Origin: Mogibacterium sp. | GTDB taxonomy: Bacteria; Bacillota; Clostridia; Peptostreptococcales; Anaerovoracaceae | Length of the DNA: 64,000 nt | Assembly (NCBI GenBank): GCA_017434025.1 | Contig: JAFRGC010000042.1 | Span: forward strand, 31,469-95,468 | Direction: 5' to 3' | In this document: in pieces, positions 12,565 through 22,306 of the stretch | How the letters are laid out: each line of letters begins with the position of its first letter | How positions within the stretch are numbered: the first letter of the stretch is position 1 | Program-made: the position numbers and the translations under genes | The notes under the pieces: model-generated | Told to the model about the DNA's origin: nothing | Seen by the model: the letters and a program-made list of their open reading frames with translations, nothing else | The model's database searches: none

Positions 12565-13335
12565 ATGTTCAAGCATACGATAGTTAGGACCCCTTGTTCG
12601 AAAGTCTGTGACGGTATCACTTCAGCGCCGGAACTCGGCCAGCCGATCTACGAAAAGGCTCTCGAACAGCATGAGAAATACATTGAGGCGCTCAAATCAA
12701 CAGGCGTGGATGTGATGGTGCTGCCGGCACTTGAGGAGTATCCGGATTCGTGTTTTGTCGAGGATGTTGCGGTGCTGTCAGAGAAATGCGCTCTGATCAC
12801 CAATCCGGGAGCAGGCACCAGGAACGGCGAGACGGAATTCATCATTCCTGCGATCAAGAAGTTCTATTCTGAGGATCAGATCGGGTATATCAAAGCCCCA
12901 GGAACACTAGAGGGCGGAGATGTTATGAAGGTCGGCGATACATTCTACGTCGGAGTGTCTGCAAGAACCAATGAAGAGGGCATCAAACAGTTCGCTGAAT
13001 TCTTCGGTTCCTATGGCTATGAGGTCAAAGCGGTTCCGCTGACCGAGGTGCTGCACCTCAAGACCGGAGTCAACTATATCGAGAACAACAAAATGCTGGT
13101 ATCCGGGGAATTCATCGACAAGCCGGAATTCGCAGGTTATGAGAAGATCATCGTTCCTGACGAGGAAGCTTATGGCGCGAATTGCATCTGGATGAACGGT
13201 ACAGTGATCGTTCCGCTCGGCTACGAGGCTGTCAAGGCTGCAGTCGAGAAGGCAGGATATCCGGTGATCACAGTTGACACTTCTGAGTTCAGGAAGATCG
13301 ACGGAGGACTCAGCTGCTTGTCACTGAGGTTCTGA
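12565..13335 (+). CDS. Dimethylarginine dimethylaminohydrolase-like (DDAH) enzyme
   Basis: 256 residues, the size of bacterial DDAH and far shorter than arginine deiminase (~410). It would hydrolyse N-omega-methylated arginine to citrulline and a methylamine. Key residues are visible: CFVEDVAV, LEGGDVM with the catalytic Glu, LHLKTGV with the catalytic His, and Cys251 in GGLSCLSLRF near the C-terminus. The ribosome site AAGGAGAACGG precedes the ATG. As the last gene of an operon with argG and argH it would supply citrulline directly to ArgG. Related guanidine-modifying enzymes with other substrates (e.g. free arginine) cannot be excluded. Confidence 0.85.
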   Translation: MFKHTIVRTPCSKVCDGITSAPELGQPIYEKALEQHEKYIEALKSTGVDVMVLPALEEYPDSCFVEDVAVLSEKCALITNPGAGTRNGETEFIIPAIKKFYSEDQIGYIKAPGTLEGGDVMKVGDTFYVGVSARTNEEGIKQFAEFFGSYGYEVKAVPLTEVLHLKTGVNYIENNKMLVSGEFIDKPEFAGYEKIIVPDEEAYGANCIWMNGTVIVPLGYEAVKAAVEKAGYPVITVDTSEFRKIDGGLSCLSLRF

Positions 13336-13361: not shown

Positions 13362-13390
13362 CAGCTCCGGCTCAGTGCCGGAGCTGTTTC
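13362..13390. terminator. Terminator between convergent arginine and fumarase operons
   Basis: CAGCTCCGGC and GCCGGAGCTG form a perfect 10-bp stem with a 5-nt loop. The flanks are T-rich on the right and A-rich on the left, so it can stop transcription from both sides. Confidence 0.85.
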
Positions 13391-13391
13391 T

Positions 13392-14018
13392 CTATTTCGT
13401 GAAATGCACCTGTTTGCTTATGAGTTCTGTCTGTTCTCGCCTGATCCGGTCATACTCGGTCTTCTTCTCTTCGAAGTAATTGCGCCCGCTGGTATCTATG
13501 GTGACGATCAGCGGTCCAAGCTCTCTGACGCGGCAGTGCCATACCGCTTCCGGCATTCCGAGATCCAGCCAGTGGCCTCCCAGGATCTCCTCTGTGCAGA
13601 CGGCGCCTACGACAGCATTGCCTGCAGGCATGACACAGTGGATCGCTCCGAAATCCCTGCACGCTGCTGCTGTTGACGGTCCCATACCGCCTTTGCCGAC
13701 GATCACGCGGACACCGGTTGCTTTGACAAAGTCATATTCATACTTTTCCATGCGCATCGATGTGGTCGGACCGATCGAGATCATTTCCCAGCCACCGTCT
13801 TCTTTCTGCTTCACGATAGGGCCGGCATGCATCAGGACTTTGTCCCGGATATCCACAGGAAGGTCTTTGCCTTCGTAAACCGTGCGTTCATGGACTGAGT
13901 CACGCCCGGTAGCCAGCTCACCGTCGAGATAGAAAACATCTCCGATGCGGAGCCTCGCCAGATCACTCTCAGAGACAGGCGTAGTCAGAATCGTTCTTCC
14001 GTTCCTTACTTCGATCAT
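13392..14018 (-). CDS. Class I fumarate hydratase / tartrate dehydratase, beta subunit
   Basis: 208 residues, equal to the C-terminal part of FumA or to TtdB/FumB-beta of two-subunit enzymes. Conserved stretches seen: GDVFYLDGELATGRD, MHAGPIV, ISIGPTTSMRME, VGKGGMG and MPAGNA. With the alpha subunit it forms an oxygen-sensitive [4Fe-4S] hydro-lyase that interconverts fumarate and malate (or acts on tartrate). Its start overlaps the alpha stop by 4 bp. It is the last gene of the seven-gene minus-strand operon. Confidence 0.9.
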   Translation of the reverse strand: MIEVRNGRTILTTPVSESDLARLRIGDVFYLDGELATGRDSVHERTVYEGKDLPVDIRDKVLMHAGPIVKQKEDGGWEMISIGPTTSMRMEKYEYDFVKATGVRVIVGKGGMGPSTAAACRDFGAIHCVMPAGNAVVGAVCTEEILGGHWLDLGMPEAVWHCRVRELGPLIVTIDTSGRNYFEEKKTEYDRIRREQTELISKQVHFTK

Positions 14019-14926
14019 TTGCTGCCTCCCATATCAAATCCAGAGTGTGTACTGACGGTATAATTCAGATCACTGTCGAACGTTATGCGTCCTCTGCGGT
14101 GACACCAGCAGCTGACCGAGACCGCAACTCCGAGGTCAGCAGGATGACGCGCGGTGTTCACGACATTGACACCCATCACGGAGTGTCTGCCGCCCAACCC
14201 CTGAGGGCCAAAACCTATCGCGTTGATACCGTCCTCGAGCAGCTGCTCGAGCTTGGCAACACGCTCATTCTCGCTGCAGGAGCCTACCGGACGCATCAGC
14301 GCGTGCTTCGCGTTGAGCGCCGCTGTTTCCACGGATGTTCCGATACCCACACCGACCAGAAGAGGAGGGCAGGCATTGAGTCCGTAGGATGTCATCCGCT
14401 CTAGGACGAAATCGACGACAGCTTCATAGCCCTGCCCAGGCATCAGTACCATAGCGTGGCCCGGCAGAGAGCATCCTCCGCCAGCAGGATAGGTATAGAT
14501 CTCGCAGCCGTCCCACCCCGGGATGATATCCCACCAGAATGTCGGAGCTCCTGTGCCCGTATTGGTTCCCGTGTTGACTTCATCAAAGGTCTCTACGACA
14601 TTGTATCTGAGAGGCGTCTCTGCGGTTGCGATGCGGACTGCTTCGGTCAGAAGTCCTTCGAGTTCGCCGATAAGAGGGAAACTGCTGCCGCAGCGTATCC
14701 AGAACTGCATGTAGCCTGTGTCCTGGCAGATCGGTCGGTCGAGCTCTCTCGCCAGCTGCAGGTTCCTGAACATCAGGCTGTATATCTCCACGGCAAGTGG
14801 TTCCGTCTCCTGCGATCTGAGCGCTTCAAGCCTGGCCAGCACGTCGTCAGGCAGGTTCTTTGCTGTATAACTTATGAAAGCAGCCATTATTCCGGTCATT
14901 TTCCCGGCAGTTGCCAGATGCGACAT
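14015..14926 (-). CDS. Class I fumarate hydratase / tartrate dehydratase, alpha subunit
   Basis: 303 residues. Three cysteines at the family's cluster positions are seen: CQDTG (early), GGGCSLPGH (middle) and GSCSENERV (late), which ligate the catalytic [4Fe-4S] cluster. FNEVNTGTNTGTGAPTF-like sequence (DEVNTGTNTGTGAP) is also typical. I place the start at the ATG at 14926, which has AGGGAG 8 bp upstream, rather than at 14944. It follows the 2Fe-2S reductase gene by about 50 bp. Fumarate versus tartrate cannot be settled from sequence; fumarate from ArgH next door makes fumarase the better guess. Confidence 0.9.
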   Translation of the reverse strand: MSHLATAGKMTGIMAAFISYTAKNLPDDVLARLEALRSQETEPLAVEIYSLMFRNLQLARELDRPICQDTGYMQFWIRCGSSFPLIGELEGLLTEAVRIATAETPLRYNVVETFDEVNTGTNTGTGAPTFWWDIIPGWDGCEIYTYPAGGGCSLPGHAMVLMPGQGYEAVVDFVLERMTSYGLNACPPLLVGVGIGTSVETAALNAKHALMRPVGSCSENERVAKLEQLLEDGINAIGFGPQGLGGRHSVMGVNVVNTARHPADLGVAVSVSCWCHRRGRITFDSDLNYTVSTHSGFDMGGSK

Positions 14927-14975
14927 CTCGTCATTCTCCCTCATTCAGCAGATCAGATGCTGTTCAGATGTGATT

Positions 14976-16184
14976 CTAGTAATATTCTCCAGGTACCACA
15001 ATTGTGATATCGGAGAGGGCAAAACTTGCGCATGGGTGGATCTCACCGCACTGCTTGTCCGCCCATCTGCGGCCGTCCGTCGCGCCAGGGATGAATACGT
15101 CGCCCGATGTGACTCTGGAACGGCACCATCCGCATTCGCCGGAGCGGCATCTCGATGGAGCCTTGATGCCTGCGCGCTCGATCGCAACAAGGATCGGTTC
15201 GTTCGCTGAGCAGTCGCAGACGGTCTCGTTCGGTCCCTGTCTGACGGTCAGTTTGAATACTTTGTCTTTCTTGTCCTGCGGATAACCCGGCTCCAGCCAG
15301 ACTGTTTTGGTCGCACCGAGGAACTCCTGACGGACGTTCTTCTTCTCGAGACCGAGTTTGTCGACTTCCTTGCCTACGAAGCGGTACATCGCTTCCGGTC
15401 CGCAGATGAATACACTGTAAGGATCATTGCCTGCGTACTTTTTGATGAGGTCCGCAGTGATGAATCCGTTCTCGAATCCTTTCTTCTTCTCATCGGAGAG
15501 GACATGCACGACTTTGACCTTGTCAGTCTCAGCGCAGATCTCGTCGAGCTCTTTCCTGAACAGGATCGCATCTTCCGTCCTGCTTCCGAACAGTATCGTA
15601 AGATCGAAATCCTCGATCCCGTCTCTGATCGCGTAAGCCATCGAGAGGAATGGTGTGATGCCGGAGCCGCCTGCAAGAGCGATGACGTGTCTGGCATCCC
15701 TGTACTTCTCGTAGAAGAAAGAGCCGAGACCTTCGGAACCCTTGACCTCATCACCGACTTTGAAGTTGTCCAGCATCCAGTCCGCTGCGAATCCACCAGG
15801 ATTGGCTTTGACTGTGACAGCGACCAGACCGTCGAGTGCCCATGTAGGAGATGAGCTGATAGAGTATGGGCGGGTAACGAAACTGTCTCCGATAGGCAGT
15901 TTGAGCGAGATATACTGGCCGGCCCTGAAATAGGATGCAGGCTTGCCGTCAGATCTCTTGAGTATGAATGACTTTGCGCCTGCAGCAGCGTGGTCGATGA
16001 TATCTTCGATCACGAACGGCTGATAATCAGGGTGCATTGCCTTGGCGAATTTGTTCACCGGATAGTCAGCAGTGATCTCATTGGCAGGAGCGCTGGCGAT
16101 CACTTTCTCTCTGTCTTTGGCCAGATTTGCAAATTTGAGCATATCCAGAAGTCCGATAAGACCTACTTTGAAATTCAGTGCCAT
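14976..16184 (-). CDS. FAD/NAD(P) reductase with C-terminal 2Fe-2S ferredoxin domain
   Basis: 402 residues. Residues ~55-160 form a ferredoxin-reductase FAD domain (FRAGQYISLKLP, TRPYSISSSP), ~165-290 the nucleotide domain (ALAGGSGITPFLSMA, the conserved FICGPEAMY), and ~315-402 a plant-type ferredoxin domain with CRSGECGWC and a last Cys near the end. The N-terminal ~50 residues are extra. It can pass electrons between NAD(P)H and a redox partner. Its start overlaps the stop of the CrtI-like flavoprotein by one base (TAATG-type), so that flavoprotein is the likely partner. Confidence 0.88.
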   Translation of the reverse strand: MALNFKVGLIGLLDMLKFANLAKDREKVIASAPANEITADYPVNKFAKAMHPDYQPFVIEDIIDHAAAGAKSFILKRSDGKPASYFRAGQYISLKLPIGDSFVTRPYSISSSPTWALDGLVAVTVKANPGGFAADWMLDNFKVGDEVKGSEGLGSFFYEKYRDARHVIALAGGSGITPFLSMAYAIRDGIEDFDLTILFGSRTEDAILFRKELDEICAETDKVKVVHVLSDEKKKGFENGFITADLIKKYAGNDPYSVFICGPEAMYRFVGKEVDKLGLEKKNVRQEFLGATKTVWLEPGYPQDKKDKVFKLTVRQGPNETVCDCSANEPILVAIERAGIKAPSRCRSGECGWCRSRVTSGDVFIPGATDGRRWADKQCGEIHPCASFALSDITIVVPGEYY

Positions 16185-17722
16185 TACTTGTTACCTCCTT
16201 CCCTGAGATCTGCACAGACCAGTTGAGCACACAGGTCTCCATTGATCCATGTGGATGAATAACCGTCTGCCATGAAGGAACCGGCACCGATGTGGCGGAG
16301 TCCCTTGATGGTGAAGTCTGCCTGGATATCCATCATTCTTGCGATGATACCATCCCAGTCACTCAGTTCAAATCCGTAAGGAGTGCCGTCCGGTGTACCG
16401 AGGTATCTTGCGAATGTCATCGGGGTAGCGACTTCGACTTCTTCGATGTAAGGCGTCAGATCGATACCGAGATTCTTCTTGACATCCGCGATACATTTGC
16501 CGATCATTTTGTCCTTCATCTTGTAGTATTCCTGAGGAGTCAGTTTCGCCCAGTCTTCAGACTCGCTGAAGAGCTTGGTGAAGCTGATGACGCTGGTGCC
16601 TGCAGGTGAGAAGTCCGGGATAAGAGTGTTGTAGCTGATAAGGATGTTGTAATCATTATCGATACTCTTCATGTACTCGTATTCTTTCCTGGAATCAGCC
16701 GTCTCCGCGAAGAAGATACAGTAATCATTGATGCCGATCTCTTCGATAGGCTTATTGAGCGCCATGTAGATCATGCAGAATTTGGTGCTGAACTTCTTGT
16801 TCCTTGCTGCGGAGAGCTTCTTGTCTCTCTCCGGAACTCTGTCTTTAGGGATCATCTTCGCGTCGATGATATCCGGATTGATATTGGCAAGACACTGCTC
16901 ACACTCGACATCGCCGAGGCTCGTCCTCACACCGCATACTTTGTCGCCGTCAAACAGGAACTCTTCTGCTCTGCAGTTGAACCATGCCTCGCCGCCCAGT
17001 TCATAGAATCTGTTCAGGAAGGTCATGGAGATCTCATGAGAGGTGTGATGAGGAATGACCGCCTGACGGATGACATACATGTCGATCATGTTTCCGAAGT
17101 GGAAGAAATTGATCGTGTCGAGCGGAACTCCGAGATACGGCCAGTATACTCCGAGAATATCGATAGCCTTCTGAGGGATCTTCAGCGCCTGGAGGACTTT
17201 GAGGGTGTTGTAACCGCATGCCCTCAGGGTGTTAGGGAAGTGCTTCTGCATGTATTTGGCGTCGTTAGGTGTGCCGTCGTTCATGTAGACTTTGGCCGCT
17301 CTGATCTCGAGAAGCAGGTCAAAGAATTTCTCCATCGAAGGACGCGAACCCGGCACGTATTTCTCCATTGCCGCGATGAAGTTCTCACGTCCGCAAGGCA
17401 TTGTTACGTCCATCGGGGTGCCGTCGGAGTATGTCGAGATGCATCTGTAGCAATCCGGAACTGTGATCCAATTCACATTGACGCCATTTCTCTCCATGAG
17501 AAGTCTGACATGGCCCTTGTTGTCTTCAGGACCGAAGTCACAGATCTCATGGACGCTCGGGTCAAACTCAAAACGCCCCCTCCTGAAGCTGGACGCGCAT
17601 CCGCCGGGCAGGTTGTGCTGATCGATAAGCAATACTTTATAGCCTTCGACTGCGCACTTAACAGCTGCACTCAGGCCGGCATTTCCGGCTCCGACAACAA
17701 CTACATCGTACTTTGCTGCCAT
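16184..17722 (-). CDS. Phytoene-desaturase-like NAD(P)/FAD oxidoreductase
   Basis: 512 residues. The N-terminal dinucleotide fold VVVVGAGNAGLSAAVKCA, the acidic end of strand 2 and the GGCASSFRRGRFEFDPSVH stretch match the CrtI/phytoene-desaturase and amine-oxidase-like group; the C-terminal GAGSFMADGYSSTWINGD closes the FAD site. These enzymes oxidise or isomerise unsaturated lipids or other hydrophobic substrates; no carotenoid genes are near, so the name marks fold only. A good GGAAAGGAG site lies before the ATG, which overlaps the MoxR gene by 22 bp. The tight link to a 2Fe-2S reductase suggests a two-component redox enzyme. Confidence 0.82.
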   Translation of the reverse strand: MAAKYDVVVVGAGNAGLSAAVKCAVEGYKVLLIDQHNLPGGCASSFRRGRFEFDPSVHEICDFGPEDNKGHVRLLMERNGVNVNWITVPDCYRCISTYSDGTPMDVTMPCGRENFIAAMEKYVPGSRPSMEKFFDLLLEIRAAKVYMNDGTPNDAKYMQKHFPNTLRACGYNTLKVLQALKIPQKAIDILGVYWPYLGVPLDTINFFHFGNMIDMYVIRQAVIPHHTSHEISMTFLNRFYELGGEAWFNCRAEEFLFDGDKVCGVRTSLGDVECEQCLANINPDIIDAKMIPKDRVPERDKKLSAARNKKFSTKFCMIYMALNKPIEEIGINDYCIFFAETADSRKEYEYMKSIDNDYNILISYNTLIPDFSPAGTSVISFTKLFSESEDWAKLTPQEYYKMKDKMIGKCIADVKKNLGIDLTPYIEEVEVATPMTFARYLGTPDGTPYGFELSDWDGIIARMMDIQADFTIKGLRHIGAGSFMADGYSSTWINGDLCAQLVCADLREGGNK

Positions 17723-19167
17723 AATTTCTCTCCTTTCTGTAGGATCTCAAGTTTTCTCTCATACAACTTCAACGAATCATTATTTCTATAATATGCATCG
17801 CATCCATATCTTGCTATGAATCTCGATGAGTAGAAACCTATTGTGAGTTCGGTGACGAGTATCACCATTTCCTGTCCCGCGCCCCAGACGTTTTCCGCGA
17901 AAGCAAACAGATTGTCGAGTCTTGCTCTGGCTGCGGCAGCCGCAAGCTTCATATCTGAAACGATGCGGTCATAATCCGCTTTGATATCGGCAAAATCCGC
18001 ACCCACGGAATGTTTCCGCAGGAACTCGATGACCGTCTCGTATTTGAGCCTCGCGTCAGGAGAGAGCACGCCCATCCTGAGATAGCGCGTGTACAGTTCT
18101 TCCTCGCTGTCCGCGATCTCACTGATATCTCCACCTTCCTTGACCTGCCTGAGCAGTTTGACCAGTTCGGAGGCGACATCCTCTGTCTTGACTACAGCGG
18201 CGATCTCCTCACGGATGATCCCAAGGAGCAGACCGAGGAGGGAAAGTCTCTCGTCGAACGGCGCATTGGCTGCACGGCTCCTGATCTCTTCGCTGGCGGT
18301 ACCGGACAGAATGTCTTCGAGTTTGTAGTCGGACCTGTACTTGTTGAAGAGGTCATAATACGACGCAAAATCTTCCGCGATCTCTGTATCCTGCAGGTAC
18401 TGGCTGATCAGCTTGAGGTCGACTTCGATGCCGAGCATTTCGTACATCCTGATGATGCTGCTCAGATCAGACCATCCTCTTGCTGTTACGAATTTCTTGC
18501 CCTCGATGCTCTCTTCGACTTTGTAGAAACTGCCTCTGCGCGCTTCGAGATAAGTGAGGACGCTGGCGTGGACATTCGTGACATAAGCGTATTTCTTCCA
18601 GGCTTCATAGTCCGGCTCGATGTCGACTCTCTTGAGCCTGTCCCATGTAACGATGTCAAATTCCTTGGCGTTGCGGTTGTACTCTATCGGGTTGCCGGCG
18701 GTGACGATGATCCAGCCTTCCGGCACTCTGTGCTTACCGAATGTCTTGAACTGAAGGAACTGCAGCATTGTTGGGGTGAGCGTCTCAGAAACACAGTTGA
18801 CCTCATCGAGGAACAGAATGCCTTCCCTGAGACCGGTCGCAGCCATCACATCGTATACCGATGCAATGATCTCGCTCATGGTGTATTCGGAAACGTCATA
18901 CTCTTCACCTGCGTACGACTTGTGGACGATCTTCGGAAGACCGAGCGCTGACTGACGGGTGTGGTGAGTTATGGAATAGCTCACAAGCCCGATCCCCAGT
19001 TCCTCAGCGACCTGTCTGACGATCGCAGTCTTGCCGATTCCCGGAGGACCCATGAGGAACAGCGGGCGCTGATCCTCAACAGGAAGCACATAATTGCCGA
19101 AGCGGTCCTTCATCGAATACGCCCTGATGGTATTGGTCAGCTGCTGCTTGGCTTCTGCTATATTCAT
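17701..19167 (-). CDS. MoxR-type AAA+ ATPase
   Basis: 488 residues. Walker A GPPGIGKT at 40-47, Walker B ILFLDEVN near 122, sensor-1 region IIVTAGNP and an Arg-finger-type segment DRLKRVDIEP. The AAA_5 core is followed by ~270 residues of helices, longer than typical MoxR (~330). MoxR ATPases work with VWA proteins as chaperones that insert metals or cofactors or remodel an enzyme. Its VWA partner is encoded two genes upstream in the same operon. The start overlaps the LRR gene by 4 bp and has an AAGGAG site. Confidence 0.88.
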   Translation of the reverse strand: MNIAEAKQQLTNTIRAYSMKDRFGNYVLPVEDQRPLFLMGPPGIGKTAIVRQVAEELGIGLVSYSITHHTRQSALGLPKIVHKSYAGEEYDVSEYTMSEIIASVYDVMAATGLREGILFLDEVNCVSETLTPTMLQFLQFKTFGKHRVPEGWIIVTAGNPIEYNRNAKEFDIVTWDRLKRVDIEPDYEAWKKYAYVTNVHASVLTYLEARRGSFYKVEESIEGKKFVTARGWSDLSSIIRMYEMLGIEVDLKLISQYLQDTEIAEDFASYYDLFNKYRSDYKLEDILSGTASEEIRSRAANAPFDERLSLLGLLLGIIREEIAAVVKTEDVASELVKLLRQVKEGGDISEIADSEEELYTRYLRMGVLSPDARLKYETVIEFLRKHSVGADFADIKADYDRIVSDMKLAAAAARARLDNLFAFAENVWGAGQEMVILVTELTIGFYSSRFIARYGCDAYYRNNDSLKLYERKLEILQKGEKLWQQSTM

Positions 19168-19850
19168 AGATCAAATTCTCCTTCATCAAATCGGCGGGGA
19201 ACGGACATGAGCAGGGCAGTGATCTCGCTCCTGCCTGCGCTGTGAGCCTGCTGGATATAGGCATCAAGATCGCCTTCCAGCAGTCCCAGTCTGGCGATCC
19301 CGTTCATCGCCGGAATATTATTATGCTTGATGATCCATTCTATCATGAGTTGCTCGTGTTTGTGTATGAAGGCTCGCGCACGTTCTGCTGTGATACTGCT
19401 GTGCCTTTCCGGGCAGGAACACCAGAGCAGAGTGTACTGCAGCTCCTCGTGATGGCGAATGTTGTCCGGATAGCCGCACGCGATGAACCCTTCGTGCAGG
19501 TCATCACAGCAGCTGAAAGCGTCGCTTTCGATCACGGTGCTGACTCCCGGAACTTCGATCTTCCTGAGATCATCGCAGCTGAAGAATGCTTTCTCAGCGA
19601 TCAGTTCCATTCCTGCCGGCAGCAGGACTTCTTCGATCGCTGTCTCGCCAAATGCTTCTTCCCTGATAAACCGCAGACTTTCAGGAAAGACGACTTCTCT
19701 CAGATTGCTGCACCCGTAGAATGCGACCTCCCCGATATCTGTGATGCCCTCAGGTATCACGACAGAAGTAAAGCTGCTGTCTTCTGCGTACGCGCCTTCG
19801 ACGAGGCGGCCGTTATTGACTTTGGACGGATCTATCGTCAGTTTGCTCAT
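19164..19850 (-). CDS. Leucine-rich-repeat (BspA-type LRR_5) protein
   Basis: 228 residues. Residues ~25-125 hold four BspA-type repeats with the pattern I-x-x-x-A-F-x-x-C-x-x-L-x-x-V-x-x-P (FYGCSNLREVVFPESL, FFSCDDLRKIEVPGV, FSCCDDLHEGFI). The last ~90 residues are helical and include MIEWIIKHNNIPAMNGIARL, like an ankyrin-type end. There is no signal peptide, so it is cytoplasmic and probably a protein-protein adaptor. It overlaps both the VWA and MoxR genes by 4 bp, which implies it works with them. Confidence 0.82.
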   Translation of the reverse strand: MSKLTIDPSKVNNGRLVEGAYAEDSSFTSVVIPEGITDIGEVAFYGCSNLREVVFPESLRFIREEAFGETAIEEVLLPAGMELIAEKAFFSCDDLRKIEVPGVSTVIESDAFSCCDDLHEGFIACGYPDNIRHHEELQYTLLWCSCPERHSSITAERARAFIHKHEQLMIEWIIKHNNIPAMNGIARLGLLEGDLDAYIQQAHSAGRSEITALLMSVPRRFDEGEFDL

Positions 19851-21151
19851 AGTTTCATGAATTCTTCAGTAGGCATATCGACTTTCATGGCCCATTCCGG
19901 CACCCACACATCGGTAAGTGTGTCGTTGTGGATGATGAATGCCACATCGTAATCCGGGGAATGGGAAGGGAAGGTTCCTTTGCCGTCGGTAAAATACAGC
20001 AGCCCGCGCATTTCGGTGAGTTTGCGTTCTTCGATGAGTTTGTCCACATACGCGAATACCGGGCGGAAATCCGTCCTGCCGAGCCCCTTGATCTCCATGC
20101 TGCTGAGATAATTGTCAAAATCTTCCCGGCAGGTGATCAGTACAGAATCGCGTATTGCATCGTCACACTGCAGGATGTACAGGTTCGTCCGCGTGTCAAA
20201 ACTGTTCTGGCCGGTGAGTATGTCATGGGTGTGCTGGACAAATTTCTGCACGACCGCGCCTTCGACACTGCCGGATGTGTCAATGGCGATCACGAAATCC
20301 CGGATCTTCCTGCTGTCTCTGTACTCGAGCGGTTCGATCAGAGGGATGTCCCCGTACAGCTCTATGCCATAAGTATAGTAGATGTTATCGAATTCCTCAT
20401 CGGAGACTTTCATGGTCTCCGAGCGGAGGCTGAACCGCTTGAGAAATTCCGTATAGTTATATCTGATACGGTTGATCTCTCTCAGATTCTGAGTGAGTGC
20501 TCCGTCATCTTTGTCAAAAAGTTCGAGCTCTGTCTGCATCCGCCTGGCGATATCTTTCCACAGCTGCTCAAGATCGATATTGCTCGCGATAGGGTAGTAT
20601 GCGGCATCTGTTCCGTACCACAGATCGTGATCATCACCGTGGAACAGCTCACTCCACTGATAGCACTGTACATAAGAGACCTTGCCGCTATTGAGATAGC
20701 TGTAGATCCTCTCTGCAGTCAGATAGGGGAGTTCCTCCCTGAGACGGCCGATCACTTCTGCCTGAGCGGTTTCACGTTTGGCTCTGAGACAGTCTTTCCC
20801 GAGCTCGTTGATACTGTTCTCAGCAGCGATATCACATGCCAGATCCCATCTGAGTCTGTCGATCCCCTCACCGACGATACTGTGCCTGAGCACATTGTGG
20901 AGAGCGCAGTGGATCAGGTTGCGTGTAACGGAGTTCTGATCATCGTGATACATGTTGATCAGACTCCACGGGCTGTAGAAAACAAAAGCACCGTTGCCTG
21001 CGAATCTGAAATTCATATCAGGAACGATGCGGAGATTGCCGATCGCGCGGTCCATGAACCTCAAATTGACAAGAATAGTGTTTCTTGCCAGTGCGATTAT
21101 TTCCTGTGACAATTCTTCTGCCTGTCGGTCGCGTTCGGTCAGATTGTTCAT
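19847..21151 (-). CDS. VWA-domain protein, DUF2201-like (MoxR partner)
   Basis: 434 residues, first gene of the seven-gene operon. The C-terminal half has a VWA fold with MIDAS motif DTSGSV near 300, a later GRTDF threonine and YFTDGKG. The N-terminal half resembles the DUF2201 metallopeptidase-like part, but the zinc-protease-type helix reads HCALHNVLRH, with the catalytic Glu of HExxH absent. It therefore looks like a binding rather than a cutting domain. It should pair with the MoxR ATPase encoded downstream. The operon's promoter must lie in 21152-21250, an AT-rich stretch where no clear minus-strand -35/-10 pair stands out. Confidence 0.82.
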   Translation of the reverse strand: MNNLTERDRQAEELSQEIIALARNTILVNLRFMDRAIGNLRIVPDMNFRFAGNGAFVFYSPWSLINMYHDDQNSVTRNLIHCALHNVLRHSIVGEGIDRLRWDLACDIAAENSINELGKDCLRAKRETAQAEVIGRLREELPYLTAERIYSYLNSGKVSYVQCYQWSELFHGDDHDLWYGTDAAYYPIASNIDLEQLWKDIARRMQTELELFDKDDGALTQNLREINRIRYNYTEFLKRFSLRSETMKVSDEEFDNIYYTYGIELYGDIPLIEPLEYRDSRKIRDFVIAIDTSGSVEGAVVQKFVQHTHDILTGQNSFDTRTNLYILQCDDAIRDSVLITCREDFDNYLSSMEIKGLGRTDFRPVFAYVDKLIEERKLTEMRGLLYFTDGKGTFPSHSPDYDVAFIIHNDTLTDVWVPEWAMKVDMPTEEFMKL

Positions 21152-21289: not shown

Positions 21290-22306
21290 ATGAAATGCGC
21301 AATTTACGGTGCCGGATCTCTGGGCACGATATTAGGAGCTTATCTCACGAAGAACGGTTTCCCGATCGAGCTGGTGAACCGCAATGTAAAACATGTAGAA
21401 GCACTGCAGAAGAACGGAGCTCACATCACGGGAACGGTCGATTTCACTACTCCGGTCAACGCGATCCTGCCGGATCAGATGGAAGGCCCGTATGACATCA
21501 TTTTCCTGATGACAAAGCAGCTCCATAACCCGGAAATCGTCACCATGCTCAAGCCAAAGCTTGCTGATGACGGTGTCATCGTGACGCTGCAGAACGGCAT
21601 CCCTGAACCCGGTATCGCAGAGATCGTGGGCGAAGACAGGACTGTCGGCTGCACGGTGGAATGGGGCGCGACTATGACGGAGCCGGGCTGCTGTATCCTG
21701 ACCAGTGAGCCGGAAAGCCTGTCATTCCATATGGGAGGCATGAAAGGCATATCGCCGGAAACGCTTGAACGGGTGAAGAGCGTGCTTGAGAAAATGTGTC
21801 CTGTGGACATCGAGGACAATCTGATCGGCGCGCGCTGGTCCAAACTCCTGATCAATGCCACATTCTCCGGACTTGGGTCTGTTATCGGAGGTACCTTCGG
21901 TGATGTCGCGACGTGGAAGCCTGCCAACAAGGTAGCGGTAAAATGCATGAAAGAATGCATCGATGTCGCTCATGCCGGCGGAGTCGAATTTGCACCGGTC
22001 CAGGGCAAAGACATCACGAAACTCTTCTACTACACGAACAAAGCGAAACAGAAAATTGCGGAGATACTCGTGCCGATAGCCATGAAAAAGCACTTCGGGA
22101 TCGTTCCGTCGATGCTGCAGGATCTCCAGAAAGGCAAGCCTTGCGAGATCGACGCGATCAACGGCGTTGTCTGTGAGTGGGGCAGGAAGTACGGCGTACC
22201 GACTCCTGTGAATGACAGGATCGTAGAGATCGTCAAGAAGGAAGAGAAGGAAGGCCTCAGACCGATGCTGGCGAATATCCAGTACCTGGAGGAATTCTAC
22301 AAATAG
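21290..22306 (+). CDS. Ketopantoate reductase family protein (ApbA/PanE)
   Basis: 338 residues. The N-terminal NADP site AIYGAGSLGTILGAYL and VNRNVKHVEAL, the LTKQ-like MTKQLHN stretch, VTLQNGI, and the C-terminal helical domain with the conserved Lys (RWSKLLINATFS) and a late PSMLQDLQKG-EID motif all fit 2-dehydropantoate 2-reductases. It would reduce ketopantoate to pantoate for coenzyme A, though many paralogues act on other 2-keto acids. ATG follows GAGAGGGGGAAG. A TATAAT at 21243-21248 is a possible -10. A pantothenate symporter is encoded at 40.6 kb, so the strain may both make and import pantothenate. Confidence 0.85.
   Translation: MKCAIYGAGSLGTILGAYLTKNGFPIELVNRNVKHVEALQKNGAHITGTVDFTTPVNAILPDQMEGPYDIIFLMTKQLHNPEIVTMLKPKLADDGVIVTLQNGIPEPGIAEIVGEDRTVGCTVEWGATMTEPGCCILTSEPESLSFHMGGMKGISPETLERVKSVLEKMCPVDIEDNLIGARWSKLLINATFSGLGSVIGGTFGDVATWKPANKVAVKCMKECIDVAHAGGVEFAPVQGKDITKLFYYTNKAKQKIAEILVPIAMKKHFGIVPSMLQDLQKGKPCEIDAINGVVCEWGRKYGVPTPVNDRIVEIVKKEEKEGLRPMLANIQYLEEFYK

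Follow-up and report, generated by a model that had tools for sequence, protein, structure and literature searches.

Which enzyme is served by a MoxR-like AAA+ ATPase and a VWA protein that are encoded in a tightly packed operon together with several redox and hydratase genes? The question is raised by a 64,000-nucleotide (nt) stretch of contig JAFRGC010000042.1 (positions 31,469 to 95,468, hereafter the window) from a Mogibacterium sp. genome (GCA_017434025.1; 2.22 Mb, 84% complete). A first-pass annotation had described a seven-gene minus-strand operon with overlapping or very short junctions at 13392..21151, and had taken it as one functional set in which a MoxR/VWA pair would mature either a class I fumarase or a new redox enzyme made of a CrtI-like flavoprotein and its reductase. 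Seven open reading frames (ORFs) indeed occupy exactly this span, with junctions of −4, −4, −22, −1, +31 and −4 nt in transcription order, but comparison with relatives divides the seven packed genes into two units: a five-gene VWA-LRR-AAA-CrtI-Red cassette (14976-21151), which is kept in relatives among gut-type clostridia, and ttdAB, which is linked to it only here. The first three products are probably a MoxR-like AAA+/VWA remodelling chaperone with a leucine-rich repeat (LRR) adaptor, dedicated to the flavo/[2Fe-2S] pair formed by CrtI and Red.

Linkage of the AAA/VWA/LRR triad to a flavoenzyme pair

The cassette comprises, all on the minus strand, ORFs 1 to 5, which encode the VWA protein (19847..21151; 434 amino acids, aa), the LRR protein (19164..19850; 228 aa), the AAA protein (17701..19167; 488 aa), CrtI (16184..17722; 512 aa), whose first 22 nt lie within the AAA gene, and Red (14976..16184; 402 aa). 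When relatives were scanned with the AAA protein (the best 80 of 253 were kept, which favours near kin), the full VWA-LRR-AAA-CrtI-Red order was visible in 10 of the 80 loci (L018-L020, L022-L026, L028, L047), and L021 has the same order up to a cut-off after the CrtI start. The order is CrtI-Red-VWA-LRR-AAA in L027 and L031, and the VWA gene is inverted in L057 and L070. An overlap of 22-25 nt between AAA stop and CrtI start recurs in eight relatives. A second, divergent CrtI-Red pair lies next to the VWA gene in L019, L020, L022 and L024 (only its CrtI is visible in L018).

Phylogenetically, all 16 AAA rows linked to CrtI-Red fell into one clade that held no unlinked row (110 rows, SH-aLRT 98; eight rows came from short contigs, none of them inside this clade), and the same was true of 17 out of 17 CrtI-linked rows in a larger tree (135 rows, SH-aLRT 99). 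Two labels were set by hand, that of L021 in both trees, as its contig stops 27 residues into CrtI, and that of L018 in the larger one. CrtI-Red occurs with every member of the window's AAA clade, and, since its linkage to the AAA, VWA and LRR genes is stable in many genomes, the redox pair is a plausible client of the triad, as the first-pass annotation had offered as one of its two options.

Clustering of the neighbouring genes over 90 loci (the 80 and ten further AAA contexts) recovered VWA in 77 loci, LRR in 76, CrtI and Red in 14 each and a Mo-hydroxylase triple in five. Other clusters consisted of antisense ORFs, generic families such as ABC ATPases (15 loci), LysR proteins and response regulators (six loci each), neighbours shared by near relatives, two small ~155 aa proteins before AAA (five and four loci), and a protein of 300-345 aa whose gene separates VWA from AAA (six loci). 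Gene calls are longest-ORF picks, with some starts and gaps unsure (e.g., −97 nt at L028) and genes masked by antisense ORFs in GC-rich loci; a composition and length filter removed 23 of 263 rows, and no count depends on it. Identical gene coordinates (L023/L268, L057/L269) evidently mark the same genomes, and the counts of the two collections are therefore kept separate.

A genus sample returned 47 genomes, which were searched for TtdA, CrtI and AAA. Matches to CrtI were found in 30 and to AAA in 29, with the two genes side by side in 12. Comparing lineage-I CrtI (≥78% identity) with clade-A AAA, both were present in 11 genomes and neither in 34, with one discordant genome on each side (Fisher p = 8e-9, which is only a guide because the genomes are related). 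The two are unlinked in two of the 11 genomes, and the p-value without the nine adjacent cases is 0.013. In G528 and G541 the lineage-I CrtI lies elsewhere in the genome, and the triad there adjoins another CrtI-Red pair.

Conserved features of the five proteins

The VWA protein combines an N-terminal degenerate DUF2201 zincin-like domain with a C-terminal VWA domain that has a full metal ion-dependent adhesion site (MIDAS). Its VWA-like DUF2201 part is above threshold (PF09967, 40.3 bits vs. a cut-off of 26.4), and the metallopeptidase-like part, defined by HExxH, is not (PF13203, 18.6 vs. 23.2). In place of HExxH stands an HxxxHxxxxH motif from which the zincin glutamate is absent (20882..20911, minus strand; residues 81-90), with H81, H85, H90 and D107 unchanged throughout an alignment of 25 sequences; HExxH is retained in three of eight other DUF2201 proteins of the genus from a motif scan (L194, L195, L210). 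The MIDAS motif DTSGS (20267..20281, minus strand; residues 291-295) is equally constant, with D291, S293, S295, T360 and D389 invariant in the same alignment. A structural model (mean predicted local distance difference test score of 80) places the VWA fold at about residues 281-434, and a fold search covered about residues 238-434. The VWA domain extends to the C-terminus, with no Pfam domain beyond it.

The AAA protein had been labelled MoxR, which holds in part: the AAA and AAA_5 models pass (AAA_5, 29.1 bits vs. a cut-off of 22), but AAA_3, the MoxR core, scores 14.3 against a cut-off of 27, hence by cut-off the protein is only a MoxR-like AAA+ ATPase and not an AAA_3 member. Walker A, Walker B, sensor 1 and the Arg residue are all intact, and G40, P42, G43, G45, K46, T47, D121, E122, N159 and R177 are conserved in 100% of 111 aligned sequences. 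The LRR protein is of BspA type (LRR_5, PF13306, 80.3 bits) and probably acts as an adaptor; across eight relatives it is the most variable triad member, with 36-68% identity to the window protein vs. 57-77% for AAA. At L053, L058, L072, L068 and L092 the triads lie within arrays of BspA-type LRR genes, which number up to about nine. The window's genome also carries a second AAA-VWA-LRR copy (L098:6767-9310); after it come a 155-aa gene and then the gene of an 847-aa TIR-TPR protein, which may point to a role in defence.

CrtI is an FAD protein of the CrtISO/carotenoid-desaturase fold (NAD_binding_8), and the fold is all it has in common with the carotenoid isomerases and desaturases, as its scores lie far below the NCBIfam equivalog cut-offs for both CrtISO (98.6 vs. 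586.9) and the CrtI family (50.5 vs. 238.1). Unlike those enzymes, it adjoins a reductase of its own: of 20 CrtI loci without AAA that were fetched, 19 have Red as the neighbour of CrtI and the remaining one is cut by the contig end. Red itself is an FAD/NAD/[2Fe-2S] reductase with FAD_binding_6 (PF00970), NAD_binding_1 (PF00175) and Fer2 (PF00111) all above cut-off, and its four [2Fe-2S] cysteines (C346, C351, C354 and C385; 15030..15149, minus strand) are conserved in 100% of 39 aligned Red proteins. CrtI and Red most likely make up a two-component flavoenzyme driven by NAD(P)H, which would act on a small hydrophobic substrate by reducing or isomerising a C=C bond. A literature search on CrtI-like reductases found nothing relevant.

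The surroundings of CrtI-Red pairs vary and include carboxylesterases, M20-type hydrolases, OYE-type enzymes and MoeA/TupA-like genes (mostly named by eye). At L026 (1557-7904 and 14265-17517) the cassette is preceded by four and followed by two carboxylesterase-like genes, one of the six being Pfam-scanned, and relatives of these genes occur in L019, L020 and L024, possibly hinting at an ester substrate. In the window, a ketopantoate-reductase-like gene (21290-22306) is divergent from the VWA gene; its 88% identical relative in G547 (L275:9638-10651) adjoins a CrtI-Red pair among neighbours read by eye as MoeA, TupA and MOSC proteins. One CrtI copy has an internal stop codon next to a full-length Red gene (L143:782-2422), and at L027 (11549-12796) a gene for the D-component of 2-hydroxyglutaryl-CoA dehydratase, another Fe-S enzyme, lies directly downstream of AAA.

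Tartrate dehydratase genes next to the cassette

The last two genes of the window operon, also on the minus strand, are ttdA (ORF 6, 14015..14944; the true start is possibly 14926, behind GAGGGAG) and ttdB (ORF 7, 13392..14018). Their Pfam domains are Fumerase and Fumerase_C, and both products exceed the NCBIfam equivalog cut-offs for L(+)-tartrate dehydratase (alpha subunit, NF006084, 469.6 bits vs. 365; beta subunit, NF006082, 288.5 vs. 264), which makes L(+)-tartrate dehydratase a better name than "class I fumarase". A hairpin scan found no terminator-like site on the minus strand in the 31-nt gap between Red and ttdA, and a single transcript is thus possible in this genome. Two weak five-pair sites lie within CrtI (17589-17575) and ttdB (13952-13940), and the strong one on this strand comes only after ttdB (13362..13386; ten pairs, eight of them G-C), where it is common to the convergent DDAH gene (12565-13335). 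Over both strands, 12 terminator-like sites were found vs. 7.2 expected.

Outside the window the association disappears. TtdA and TtdB had no tblastn match (E 1e-5) in the 80 related AAA loci, some of which are short contigs. Within the genus, ttdA was found in 28 of the 47 genomes, namely in 8 of 12 with the cassette and 20 of 35 without it (Fisher p = 0.74, i.e., no co-occurrence), and the window's own genome is the only one in which it lies next to the AAA-CrtI cluster; of the other seven cassette genomes with ttdA, one (G559) has it about 25 kb away on the same contig and six on another contig. VWA, AAA, CrtI and Red were absent from eight fetched ttdA contexts out of the 27 outside the window. 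In four relatives (L260-L263), ttdBA is convergent with the DDAH gene as in the window, and the cassette is absent; ABC-transporter genes come next in L260-L262, and the L263 contig ends there. The simplest history is that the five-gene cassette came to lie next to a resident ttdBA. The hydratase was accordingly rejected as a client, and ttdAB would be a neighbour or passenger, possibly read through from the cassette transcript in this genome only.

Other partners of the AAA/VWA genes

Relatives of the triad also stand with other redox operons. An XDH_FAD-2Fe2S-Mo-VWA-LRR-AAA order on one strand was seen in L064, L078, L089 and L097 (Pfam was run on L089 only), followed downstream by a trigger-factor-like gene (Trigger_N/Trigger_C in L089). 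The AAA proteins of these four loci are 69-73% identical and form one clade; L089 is listed under a named strain (Anaerovorax odorimutans SL.3.17) rather than as a metagenome-assembled genome. A Mo hydroxylase is also found upstream in L037, on a separate AAA branch.

Another VWA-AAA lineage within the genus (L278-L289, L291-L295, L298) forms one clade of 18 rows (support 100), 14 of which lack an LRR match within 6 kb. Tetrapyrrole/cobalamin-type genes lie upstream (by Pfam in L278 and L279, by eye in the rest), and a corrinoid protein and RACo both follow downstream on the same strand in 14 of 18, with intervening genes in L292. Of the others, L291 shows the corrinoid protein before its contig end, L284 and L298 end at AAA, and in L278 both genes are missing from the 1.8 kb downstream that was examined. 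These VWA-AAA genes thereby sit between tetrapyrrole/cobalamin-type genes and a UROD-like/corrinoid protein/RACo/MtaA-like set, an arrangement that we take to recall the AAA/VWA proteins CobS/CobT of cobaltochelatase. In L105, which belongs to another genus and to a different AAA branch, RACo is likewise an immediate neighbour of VWA. The 18 RACo rows of the 135-row tree comprise 15 of the genus with L105, L175 and L188, and the corrinoid links of the last two were rejected, as the matched proteins are large (881 and 756 aa, possibly MetH-like) and are encoded on the opposite strand, some 6 kb away from AAA. A third AAA lineage of the genus has LRR-VWA-AAA alone (eight rows, support 100), with none of these redox or corrinoid partners.

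Comparison with known systems and a possible mechanism

In established AAA+/VWA chaperone pairs the two genes can be encoded with the client enzyme, as in the CbbQ/CbbO operon layout. The cassette shares with such pairs an adjacent VWA protein with a complete MIDAS and a putative client enzyme encoded alongside; the clients of NorQ/NorD and CbbQ/CbbO are nitric-oxide reductase and Rubisco, and the window AAA protein differs in staying below the AAA_3 cut-off. We know of no LRR protein in NorQ/NorD, CbbQ/CbbO or RavA-ViaA, nor of ravA-viaA standing in an operon with its client. The cofactors of aerobic CO dehydrogenase are FAD, [2Fe-2S] and Mo.

NorQ/NorD, which serve FeB insertion, offer a mechanistic model: AAA+ and VWA proteins are encoded with the client enzyme, the MIDAS is intact and is proposed to grip the client, and ATP would open the client for metal insertion (PMC9976466). 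CoxD and CoxE, on which the [CuSMoO2] centre of CO dehydrogenase depends (PMC3471820), are an AAA+/VWA pair next to an FAD/2Fe-2S/Mo enzyme and the closest parallel to L064, L078, L089 and L097, although a Mo hydroxylase occurs here only in sister loci, and the window's partner is CrtI-Red. RavA-ViaA of E. coli also pairs a MoxR AAA+ with a neighbouring VWA protein, and its reported target, bound by the ViaA VWA domain, is FrdA, the flavoprotein of a flavin/Fe-S enzyme (PMC10585395); the window VWA protein is distinct in its DUF2201-type degenerate zincin N-terminal domain. Our literature search, which reached few subscription papers, returned no paper on VWA/MoxR proteins with LRR, Mo hydroxylase, RACo or phytoene-type enzymes, and no described chaperone for a CrtI-Red-type flavoenzyme pair.

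From the gene order, motifs, linkage and phylogeny observed, and by analogy with ViaA, NorQ/NorD and CoxD/CoxE, we propose that VWA-LRR-AAA remodels CrtI-Red, with the physical interactions and chemistry inferred as follows. The AAA+ ring would be coupled to the VWA protein, whose MIDAS would grip an acidic patch on CrtI-Red, while specificity for this client could come from the degenerate zincin-like domain, the LRR protein, or both. ATP turnover would then open the client such that its flavin or [2Fe-2S] cofactor may be inserted, exchanged or activated.

Weighing the chaperone proposal against its alternatives

Several observations weigh against a chaperone dedicated to CrtI-Red. Neither AAA nor VWA was found in any of the 20 other fetched CrtI loci (a few on short contigs, and two being extra copies of the window's genome), and five of the 30 CrtI-bearing genomes of the genus have no AAA match (G530, G520, G521, G562, G536). 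CrtI-Red pairs are thus frequent without the module, which is therefore not strictly needed, and the role of the triad would be accessory rather than essential. In a class sample of 391 genomes, CrtI was present in 16 and the AAA protein (E 1e-60) in 24; of 21 AAA contexts from this sample, all contained VWA, 17 had an LRR match (some of them weak, at 41-60 bits, or lying several kb off), and none contained CrtI, Red or an XDH/Mo hydroxylase. The wider family is thus built on VWA-AAA, which LRR usually accompanies and a redox partner mostly does not. In addition, many loci are metagenome-assembled and related, and several are in both collections, hence their counts are not independent events.

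The history of the partner and the shared cofactor domain count in favour of the proposal, with caveats of their own. A tree of 40 CrtI proteins requires at least three changes of the AAA-linked label, and a single clade of AAA-linked rows (with L115) was rejected with L028 falling outside (p-AU 0.014), in a post hoc test whose grouping was named after the tree had been seen and in which L028 is a long branch; the Red tree likewise warns of a long-branch join at L028. Since the AAA-linked CrtI proteins are not one clade, the association of the AAA clade with a CrtI-Red pair seems to have persisted through at least one change of partner lineage (L028). The plant-type [2Fe-2S] domain Fer2 is common to Red, the XDH 2Fe-2S subunit and RACo, and it lies within 10 kb of at least 26 of 47 AAA copies in the genus vs. 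2.4 expected, and of at least 1 of 30 outside it vs. 0.4 expected (59 AAA-bearing genomes; observed counts are lower bounds, and expectations derive from full per-genome counts). The genus cases fall in two AAA lineages and thus represent two events rather than 26, and a universal Fer2 rule was rejected on the numbers outside the genus.

The frequent occurrence of CrtI-Red without the module is also what would be expected if the triad, instead of maturing the pair, regulated it as an optional inhibitor or stress sensor. RavA-ViaA provides a precedent, as it is reported to lower fumarate reductase (Frd) activity through binding of FrdA by the ViaA VWA domain, an effect disputed by other authors (PMC10585395). 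Several unlinked CrtI-Red pairs, however, have TetR/GntR-like neighbours (named by eye), so regulation can be transcriptional, and we regard this explanation as unlikely. A little less likely again is that the triad is a MoxR-vWA ternary conflict system, for phage defence or similar, with the LRR protein as sensor and CrtI-Red as redox effector or frequent neighbour. MoxR, vWA and a variable third component do make up the ternary layout (Kaur et al. 2020, PMC7159879; PMC8195603), and the variability of the LRR protein, the LRR gene arrays of some triads and the TIR-TPR protein near the second copy in this genome would all fit. Against it, the AAA protein does not reach the bpMoxR cut-off (24.7 vs. 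27 bits) and no Pfam effector domain follows the VWA domain. The third components named in the accessible text of those two papers (VMAP, iSTAND, FtsH, beta-propeller, iSTAND2, TERNS3) include neither a BspA-type LRR nor a flavoenzyme partner, and they are matched by none of the seven operon proteins in Pfam and by none of five of them in PADLOC, in libraries that may lack models for some of these components. PADLOC matches are weak only (IetA, TRIP13 and mad8 for AAA, a desaturase model for CrtI, and Csn2 for VWA with E 0.011), with none for LRR or Red, and a defence island does not predict a clade-wide link to a metabolic pair or the links to Mo-hydroxylase and corrinoid genes.

Least probable by far is a joint function of the seven genes in which the Fe-S hydratase TtdAB would be the client. 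The short, terminator-free gap between Red and ttdA favours such a unit, but the 80 related loci, the lack of co-occurrence in the genus and the four ttdBA-DDAH loci without the cassette leave it largely refuted. The first-pass annotation had named as its own refutation that the triad and the redox/fumarase part be never linked in related genomes, and the outcome is split: no such link was seen for the hydratase genes outside the window, and a recurrent one for the redox genes. A remodelling chaperone of CrtI-Red remains the reading that we consider probable.

Implications for the family

AAA+/VWA pairs have so far been known for a handful of clients. In the present case one AAA clade, joined by an LRR protein as an additional partner, is tied throughout to a flavoenzyme pair, and its sister clades are found at other redox operons. 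It is tempting to speculate, though only tentatively, that these genes belong to a modular clostridial AAA+/VWA chaperone family in which a degenerate zincin-like metal site is combined with a repeat-protein adaptor that can be exchanged. Such a family would have been joined, on separate occasions, to three or more unrelated redox systems with a plant-type [2Fe-2S] domain in common (CrtI-Red, CoxMSL-like Mo hydroxylases and RACo-dependent corrinoid systems), and its common task might be to deliver, repair or gate [2Fe-2S]/flavin electron transfer. For the window itself the candidate client is corrected, as the neighbouring hydratase can be dropped, and for a large uncharacterised family the linkages provide client assignments that can be tested.

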